The position numbers were made by a program, and so were the translations under genes. A stretch of 64,000 nucleotides of DNA from Syncephalis plumigaleata (taxonomy: Eukaryota > Zoopagomycota > Zoopagomycetes > Zoopagales > Piptocephalidaceae), in the NCBI GenBank assembly GCA_025201365.1, contig JAIXMF010000031.1:1-64000 (forward strand), written 5' to 3'. This document shows, in pieces, positions 45,317 to 46,992 of this stretch (position 1 is its first letter; each line of letters begins with the position of its first letter). Under the pieces are notes generated by a model that searched no databases, was not told the DNA's origin, and saw nothing but the letters and a program-made list of their open reading frames with translations.

Positions 45317-45321
45317 AAAAA
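45317..45321 (-). terminator. RNA polymerase III terminator after tRNA-Glu
   Basis: A run of five T on the minus strand begins three bases after the tRNA 3' end. No T run of four or more is present in the spacer between the 5S gene and the tRNA. Confidence 0.7.
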
Positions 45322-45324
45322 GGA

Positions 45325-45396
45325 TTCCGCATCGGGGAATTGAACCCCGGCCCTGGCGGTGAGAGCGCCATATCCTAACCACTAGACGAATGCGGA
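45325..45396 (-). tRNA. tRNA-Glu (anticodon CTC)
   Basis: The 72-base minus-strand sequence folds as a standard tRNA. The acceptor arm TCCGCAT pairs with ATGCGGA and the discriminator is A. The D arm contains TCTAGTGGTTAGGAT. The anticodon stem-loop GGCGCTCTCACCGCC carries anticodon CTC. The T arm GCCGGGGTTCAATTCCCCG supplies the B box. There is no intron. It lies 10 bases downstream of the 5S rRNA gene on the same strand. Confidence 0.95.
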
Positions 45397-45406
45397 TGGT
45401 TGTTGT

Positions 45407-45525
45407 AACTACATTACCCGAGATTCCCGGGTGGTCTCCCACCGCAGTACTAAGGGGGCGCGGCCTGGCTTAACTTCGGAGATCGGACGGGATCCGGTGC
45501 TTTTCAGGCGCTATGAACGTAGTTG
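45407..45525 (-). rRNA. 5S ribosomal RNA
   Basis: About 119 bases on the minus strand match eukaryotic 5S rRNA. The 5' AACTACG and 3' TGTAGTT ends pair as helix I. GATCCCGTCCGATCTCCGAA, AAGTTAAGCCAGG, TTAGTACTGCGGTGGGAGAC and CACCCGGGAATCTCGGGT are the standard helix and internal-promoter (A box, IE, C box) sequences. It is a dispersed single gene, not part of an rDNA unit. Unusually, no T-run terminator follows it; the tRNA-Glu gene begins 10 bases on. Confidence 0.93.
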
Positions 45526-46992
45526 AAATGTTTTCGGTTATGGACATGGCGTTCTGCTTGTTAATTTTTGTTAAAATTTGAAAAAATTAGTAATTTTGCG
45601 TATTTTTATAGTAGAATAGAACGAGTTAGCATAATAGAATGTTATGTTACTTGTTAATGATGTATGTAGTCTGTTGTGAATAAATAAATTGCATTATTTA
45701 GTAATATTTACCAATTATAGTGTTAATAATTACGTTATGCACCATATAATTTACCGTAAACGCGGCGTAATATGCGCTATATCTACTACAAACTGTAACT
45801 AGCGATTGCTATACTTGCATTTATAATCGTAATTGGTAGTACATGTATAGGATAATAAAAGCTTGTTACCACTTGCAAGTTACAAATATTATCGGTAATA
45901 CACGAAAGCTCGTCATGTGCAGTCTATTCATATGCCTTTTTTAATGCCATGCATCCGCCAATGTCCATGTGCGATAAGACTATAAACACAATTCATTGAT
46001 CACGCTACAACTGCAACGTTCTTGTTATTACACACGCATACACACACACGTACGCACACGCACACACGCTTTATTTGATAGAATAGCACGCTGGTCTGTA
46101 TTTCCTATGGTGGTGGACTTGTACCGACGAAATACTATACAATATCAGCTGTACTGTCGCCGACTCCTTTATCTCTTTCACCTTGCGATTACCCAAGCCT
46201 CTCACTCTCTCGCTTACTCTCTCCCTAACTCCCTCACTTACTCCCTCACTCTTGCTACCCTCTATAACCTACCTCGCGTTTCTTCCTTAACGCAACCCGT
46301 GTCCGCCTTTTTTTCATTTCTAGTCTGTGTTATATCCTCCGTACTTTGCGGTATTTGACCGCTCTTTTTATTTCCACTTAAAATTGCTATATCCGCTCAT
46401 TCTAAATAATCTTTTTTCAAACTATAGCTTTTCATCATCGTTAATACACTCAATCTACATCTAGCAGCAACAACAGTAGTAGCAACAATAGCAGCAATCA
46501 TTAGCTGGTATATCGTATACAACAACTTCTTAGAGTAAAAAGGTATGTATGCTAATTATTGTATCGGCGATAACTCAGCGAATGTCGTGAATTCCACTCA
46601 CACCGCACGCTCCTCGATATCTATGCATTCTTTATTGATATAGGCCTCTGGTACCACGGTTATCCTAGGCACGTGTCGGTGGCAAATACGTTGCCATCCT
46701 ACGTAGAACGTCTTGTTGTTGTATTTGCCAAAATATTATCTACGGGTGCTTGGTAACTCGTGTTTCTATATCCATCATCATATTTGCCGGTCGGCATACT
46801 ACTAAACTATTCGGTAAGATATTAATTGAGCCATAGTTGATATGCTATCATTGTTGCTAATATTTGATAATGAATCAATTGCTTCGTATTTGTAATAACT
46901 TGTTCGACACGACTACTCAACCATCATCTATCGATCTAATTAGAAATTGATCGTTTGTTACATAATTAGCGGATACACACGAATATTTTGGC
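45526..46992. other. Intergenic region upstream of the RA-PH gene
   Basis: Almost 1.5 kb without a recognisable gene. The region 46186-46255 is a degenerate CTCACT/CTCCCT tract. A GTATGT donor near 46541 suggests a 5' UTR intron of the downstream gene, but its acceptor cannot be fixed. Confidence 0.35.

Follow-up and report, generated by a model that had tools for sequence, protein, structure and literature searches.

Two genes for RNAs made by RNA polymerase III (Pol III), 5S rRNA and tRNA-Glu, lie close together on one strand of the Syncephalis plumigaleata genome. Their proximity could be due to chance; alternatively, the two genes might be transcribed as one unit. The locus is part of a 64,000-nt stretch of contig JAIXMF010000031.1, referred to here as the window (contig C235 of our survey). 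Over residues 300-730, the part searched, a ThrE protein encoded in the window is 100% identical to an S. plumigaleata protein; the matches next in rank are from S. fuscata, S. pseudoplumigaleata, and Thamnocephalis. The initial annotation placed the tRNA-Glu gene on the same strand as a minus-strand 5S gene and about 10 bases behind it, and the Rfam and ARAGORN coordinates agree with this arrangement (Table 1). The spacer measures 9 nt by the Rfam limits and 10 nt when the 5S gene is taken to end at its closing helix, AACTACGTT/AATGTAGTT, which is intact; the 5S end carries T2 only. Read along its own strand, the unit consists of 5S, CAACAACCA, tRNA, TCC, TTTTT, and GC, and the T5 run previously noted behind the tRNA was located 3 bases past it, at 45317-45321. 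The 5' end of the tRNA would be the site of RNase P cleavage in a joint transcript. The AT-rich 5' flank is a possible upstream promoter, a candidate whose conservation among units is weak in the alignment of 15 upstream flanks. Rfam detected no rRNA other than 5S in the window.

Table 1. Coordinates of the 5S-tRNA-Glu unit in the window and of example copies of a Ty3/gypsy-like element elsewhere in the genome
Feature	Position	Strand	Basis
5S rRNA gene, proposed first cistron	45406..45524	-	Rfam RF00001, 99.9 bits
9-nt spacer CAACAACCA without terminator	45397..45405	-	Sequence; layout compared across 22 units
tRNA-Glu(CTC), proposed second cistron	45325..45396	-	ARAGORN; Rfam RF00005, 58.8 bits
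T5 Pol III terminator, then GC	45317..45321	-	Sequence
AT-rich 5' flank of the unit	45525..45600	-	Alignment of 15 upstream flanks
Ty3/gypsy-like element, examples	G000:C1:115627-121242; C112:509030-514645; L181		

Linkage of 5S and tRNA genes across the genome

Rfam identified 22 copies of 5S in the genome (32.6 Mb in 383 contigs). The window 5S, used as a DNA query, matched the identical 22 places and none beyond, in 23 pieces since one copy is split. The initial annotation had suggested checking whether other 5S copies are followed by a tRNA. All 22 are: a same-strand tRNA lies behind each one, 7 to 10 nt beyond the closing helix of the 5S gene, and in every unit the order is 5S first, tRNA second. 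The partners are tRNA-Gly(GCC) in 7 units, tRNA-Asp(GTC) in 6, tRNA-Glu(CTC) in 4, tRNA-Ile(AAT) in 3, and tRNA-Lys(CTT) in 2. Chance adjacency of 5S and tRNA genes is ruled out by the linkage of all 22 copies, with five tRNA species.

The split copy, L022 (G000:C101:2338-2504), contains a 48-nt insertion that interrupts the 5S gene and puts a T13 run inside it; the tRNA-Asp behind it is intact. By eye, the insertion is composed of an A/T-rich stretch and 16 nt of 5S sequence repeated in direct orientation. As a natural experiment, this copy could show if the tRNA depends on transcription of the 5S gene.

The linkage is also reciprocal. In whole-genome DNA searches with tRNA queries, which strongly diverged copies would escape, the fraction linked to 5S was 7/7 for tRNA-Gly(GCC), 6/6 for tRNA-Asp(GTC), 4/4 for tRNA-Glu(CTC), and 3/3 for tRNA-Ile(AAT), so that all 20 copies found sit behind a 5S gene. 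These counts are independent of a separate tRNA census, in which 63 of 956 candidates were scored. No free-standing 5S, tRNA-Gly(GCC), tRNA-Asp, tRNA-Glu(CTC), or tRNA-Ile(AAT) gene was found in the whole-genome DNA searches. The remaining partner, tRNA-Lys(CTT), has two linked copies and several free ones, and tRNA-Gly(TCC) occurs free (L104). Because GTC is normally the sole aspartate anticodon in eukaryotes, all tRNA-Asp would come from 5S units, barring missed diverged copies.

Terminators and start sites

Behind the tRNA, all 22 units carry a run of T5 or T6 followed by GC, which begins 70 to 78 nt past the tRNA start. When the 5S end and the spacer are taken together, 4 copies have T2, 6 have T3, and 12 have T4, and none of the 22 5S 3' ends has the T5 or longer run of a canonical stand-alone 5S terminator. 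The T4 runs belong to the Gly and most of the Asp copies, and the Glu, Ile, and Lys copies have T3 or less. The initial annotation had reported no T run between the genes, which is correct for the window copy and does not extend to the 12 copies with T4. It had also named other 5S genes with T-run terminators of their own as part of what would count against a joint unit; such terminators are absent at a length of T5 or more (0/22), and T4 runs are present in 12 of the 22.

Among the free tRNA genes that chanced to fall in the fetched loci, 34 of 37 distinct genes have a run of T4 or longer within ~40 nt downstream. The first run is T4 behind 8 of these 34, and T4 may therefore partly stop Pol III. 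Partial termination is thus possible at the 12 T4-bearing 5S ends. The bases that follow the first run are GC at 24 of the 34 free genes, GT at 7, and AC at 3, with C next in none; at the 5S ends, CA follows the T4 run in 12 of 12 cases. GC also follows the T run at all 18 distinct linked tRNA genes, and a T run plus GC is a possible lineage-specific terminator signature. Separately, a tRNA-Pro(CGG)-like sequence with a near-identical 3' flank and no T4 within ~40 nt recurs at L004, L010, L024, L044, and L045. LTR-like sequence precedes it in L024 and L044 (by eye), and it is possibly a tRNA-derived SINE.

A Ty3/gypsy-like element provides a marker for start sites. A copy of the element encodes reverse transcriptase, RNase H, and integrase, arranged as in Ty3/gypsy elements (Pfam, one open frame piece). 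The 456-bp LTR of the element immediately precedes 5S in L002, L003, L005, L012, and L013 and stops 3 to 4 nt before +1 in all five cases. Comparison of the empty site L007 with the filled site L012 (and its far flank, L107) revealed a 4-bp target duplication, TACA, at 5S positions -3 to +1. The duplications in L003 (TTAC) and L013 (TTTC) are at -4 to -1, and L005 has AACA (by eye). A genome search with the LTR gave 44 matches, 43 of them shown at 100% (rounded). Twenty further flanks were sampled, and 18 remained after exclusion of L106, which had been picked for its tRNA (the LTR end is 10 nt upstream of a tRNA-Thr), and of L098, which is without an LTR end. A tRNA pointing away from the LTR was present 5 to 25 nt off at 13 of the 18 ends (median, 9 nt; 7 to 11 nt in 9 of the 13), and no tRNA was found beside the LTR at the other 5, 3 of which share one flank. 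We take the element to be young and to insert a short distance upstream of Pol III genes. In all 22 units, inspection of the interval from 5S +1 to the tRNA end revealed no LTR end.

Ty3 and Tj1 are described, in passages of two papers, as inserting at the start sites of Pol III transcription or slightly upstream of them, Ty3 via TFIIIB, with Tj1 insertions at 5S genes falling between -3 and +41 (PMC5911963, PMC4600332). By analogy, insertions of the S. plumigaleata element may indicate where initiation complexes are active, here the start of the 5S gene. LTRs 3 to 4 nt upstream of 5S in five units, and in no spacer, would place initiation at the 5S gene. The lack of insertions in spacers is the weaker part of this evidence, because the unit would not survive such an insertion undamaged.

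Two further observations concern the element. A stretch beside one LTR matches the tRNA-Ile 3' end with CCA added (by eye) and, judged from this match, is likely the primer site. At L094:19-104 (G000:C65), the LTR end lies 5 nt upstream of a selenocysteine tRNA (Rfam RF01852, 74.7 bits). According to a passage of a 2023 review, seven of nine selenoprotein-using fungal species belong to the Harpellales (PMC10386755).

The pairs might alternatively be separately started, overlapping Pol III genes, with the tRNA transcribed mostly from its own A and B boxes and a start in the spacer and with the 5S transcript partly stopped at T4 or trimmed. Genes for tRNAs do have A and B boxes of their own. Some spacers, TTTTCAACA among them, look like the leader found at free tRNA-Lys genes, which are also targets of the element, and both the T4 runs at 12 of the 22 5S ends and the intact tRNA-Asp behind the interrupted 5S gene of L022 would fit separate starts. 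The T runs also speak against it: with T3 or less in 10 of the 22 copies, the 5S transcript must run on, and none of the 34 terminators read behind free tRNA genes shows the T4-then-C context. The element is found at the starts of free tRNA genes, yet at no linked tRNA start in the 22 units, and the TFIIIB serving such a tRNA would presumably have to sit on the 3' half of the 5S gene. We consider separate starts unlikely.

Proposed mechanism and history of the units

The reading that we prefer, with a probability of roughly 0.78, is that these pairs are dispersed dicistronic Pol III units in which the 5S gene comes first, a joint transcript is started through TFIIIA, and RNase P frees the 5S RNA. 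TFIIIA would bind the internal promoter of the 5S gene and recruit TFIIIC and TFIIIB. Pol III would start at 5S +1, find the 5S end without a strong terminator, pass through the 7- to 10-nt spacer and the tRNA, and halt at the T5 or T6 run behind it. Cleavage by RNase P at the tRNA 5' end would then leave a 5S RNA with a short 3' tail, which a Rex1-type exonuclease would trim, and the tRNA 3' end would be finished by tRNase Z or exonucleases. We infer the joint transcript, the release by RNase P, and the exonuclease trimming. A partial precedent comes from yeast: passages of one paper describe the processing of a dicistronic tRNA-tRNA transcript by RNase P and by Rex1, the latter trimming both 5S and the first tRNA (PMC12129344). 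A more tentative extension, for which the balance tips slightly toward doubt, is that all of the tRNA-Asp, tRNA-Ile(AAT), tRNA-Gly(GCC), and tRNA-Glu(CTC) genes found have come under the 5S promoter and now depend on TFIIIA, as a mirror of the situation in Yarrowia, in which 5S can rely on tRNA promoters.

This mechanism would involve TFIIIA. Zinc-finger exons on contig C318 form a chain of fingers, of which 220 joined residues were compared with known structures. They align in a single stretch with Xenopus TFIIIA (1tf6, 3-177) and with yeast TFIIIA (8ffz, 2-203). Higher scores than that of 1tf6 were obtained by three chains of ZNF568 and by Aart, a designed protein, but via several separate finger runs. 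On the basis of these alignments, we take the genome to contain a TFIIIA-like gene. Loss of TFIIIA as the cause of the linkage between 5S and tRNA genes was rejected, as a TFIIIA-like gene is found on C318.

We also folded five dicistronic transcripts, one per tRNA species, by minimum energy. In these folds, the closing helix of 5S and the acceptor stem of the tRNA formed separate domains; the inner tRNA arms were non-cloverleaf in some of the five.

Two copies, L020 and L021 (G000:C215 and C223), have a diverged 5S that differs at 15 of 119 positions and occurs only before tRNA-Lys. By eye, CCC/GGG is replaced by TTT/AAA in one helix region. With gap pairs skipped, 32 of 34 model pairs are standard in the Lys-linked 5S, compared with 31 in the main form. 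Four of the 34 pairs differ. In 2 of the 4 both sides have changed, and just one of these 2 switches from one standard pair to another, a modest level of covariation.

Comparison of flanks indicated how the units may have arisen. Several of the 22 copies are alleles or near-duplicates, leaving about 14 to 16 distinct 5S loci, a number that is a matter of judgement. Both flanks are alike in the pairs L016/L019, L009/L011, and L020/L021, downstream flanks in L007/L012, L014/L015, and L002/L013 (and partly L003), and upstream flanks in L017/L018. The window unit (L016) and the C2 unit (L019) have flanks that are ~99% identical on both sides, and the window is therefore an alternative version of the C2 region. 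Units with different tRNAs also have upstream flanks in common (for example, L005 with Gly and L011 with Asp, 982 bp at 85%), whereas their downstream flanks are unshared except for one 541-bp repeat. A module consisting of 5S and its upstream sequence thus seems to have been recombined with different tRNAs, perhaps via recombination in the 5S gene itself. Viral contigs were scanned for a tRNA arm behind a 5S end, with a filter that would miss diverged 5S; of the 69 stretches returned, one had the exact upstream 5S motif, and by eye it was not a 5S gene.

Such relatedness could also mean that the adjacency has no transcriptional role and reflects only the fact that a few ancestral 5S-tRNA pairs were duplicated and have evolved in concert. 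In the DNA search, 19 of the 22 5S genes (the window copy included) are 98 to 100% identical to the window copy, and the interrupted gene matches it in two pieces at 99 to 100%; the shared upstream flanks of units with different tRNAs and the several allelic copies point in the same direction. Duplication by itself sits poorly, however, with five tRNA species and differing spacers, with the failure to find any of the partner genes other than tRNA-Lys(CTT), or 5S itself, standing free, and with terminators that stand behind the tRNA but are weak or missing ahead of it; we regard it as very improbable. An assembly or annotation artefact is scarcely credible: although the assembly has alternative contigs, 8 of the 22 copies are on contigs of <80 kb, and indels, probably sequencing errors, occur in tRNAs on the small contigs C76 and C230 (the copies with indels are L009, an Asp copy left untyped by ARAGORN, and L002, a Gly copy), the other 14 copies are on contigs of 0.4 to 3 Mb with differing flanks, which already makes an artefact unlikely, and several copies occupy separate places on one contig (C1, C13, C101, C223).

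Relation to known 5S-tRNA arrangements

The order of the two genes distinguishes the S. plumigaleata units from those of Yarrowia lipolytica. The title of a 2008 report by Acker on the dicistronic tRNA-5S genes of Yarrowia puts the tRNA first; the initial annotation had called the order here reversed, and the 5S-first order of all 22 units bears this out. As in Yarrowia, 5S and tRNA are adjacent, on the same strand, and can be read as one Pol III unit. The S. plumigaleata units lack the tRNA-first order and are accordingly not members of the Yarrowia type, though the principle is shared. Moreover, the first cistron here is a TFIIIA-type gene, and the logic is thus reversed. Passages of two papers describe the Yarrowia dicistronic tRNA-5S rRNA genes (PMC13130702, PMC3369914); those of the first state that fused copies make up about half of all 5S genes and that TFIIIA can be deleted, compared with all 5S copies found linked in S. 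plumigaleata. The same source reports that in Trichomonascus vanleenenianus all 5S genes are in tandem with tRNA genes, 1 to 3 bp apart, and that the TFIIIA gene is kept (PMC13130702). S. plumigaleata is similar in having every 5S beside a tRNA and in retaining a TFIIIA-like gene; it differs in its gap of 7 to 10 nt, and the Trichomonascus tandems are presented in these passages as Yarrowia-like, with their order unstated. The tandems of this distant yeast lineage probably arose independently of those in Syncephalis.

Outside the fungi, the 5S-then-tRNA order is familiar from bacterial rRNA operons, in which a tRNA can lie behind 5S in one transcript. These operons start with 16S and 23S and are transcribed by the bacterial polymerase, whereas Rfam found no other rRNA in the S. 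plumigaleata window. All eleven 5S genes of Leishmania major are associated with tRNA genes and are thought to be monocistronic, according to passages of PMC2695483. A Leishmania-type terminator in the interval would be the counterpart here, and the 22 5S ends of S. plumigaleata have no T5 or longer run, with T4 then C in 12. In Entamoeba, some array units hold both tRNA genes and 5S, and the VMEDR5E unit of E. invadens lists 5S beside tRNA-Glu, a likeness of listed gene order (passages of PMC2652664). Those genes form long tandem arrays and are separated by short tandem repeats, unlike the tight, dispersed pairs of S. plumigaleata.

An engineered 5S-tRNAGly-sgRNA cassette works in Humicola insolens, where RNase P and RNase Z excise the tRNA; in the passages available, its authors credit the tRNA promoter as well (PMC8542335). 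That cassette is artificial, whereas the S. plumigaleata arrangement is natural and genome-wide. Among the matches listed in a literature search that mostly covered papers outside subscription, and within the parts of them accessible, we found no report of a natural fungal 5S-tRNA unit with 5S first.

If the dicistronic reading is correct, a single transcription event would make a ribosomal RNA and, across the units, several essential tRNAs. Formation and maturation of the 5S 3' end would require RNase P rather than termination. TFIIIA, normally thought to be dedicated to 5S, would control tRNAs. Under the more tentative extension, the ratio of 5S to these tRNAs would be fixed, and the feedback between 5S and TFIIIA would also govern tRNA supply. 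The units of Syncephalis, an early-diverging fungus far from the yeasts, would further suggest that 5S-tRNA fusion has had more than one origin in fungi, with opposite polarity.
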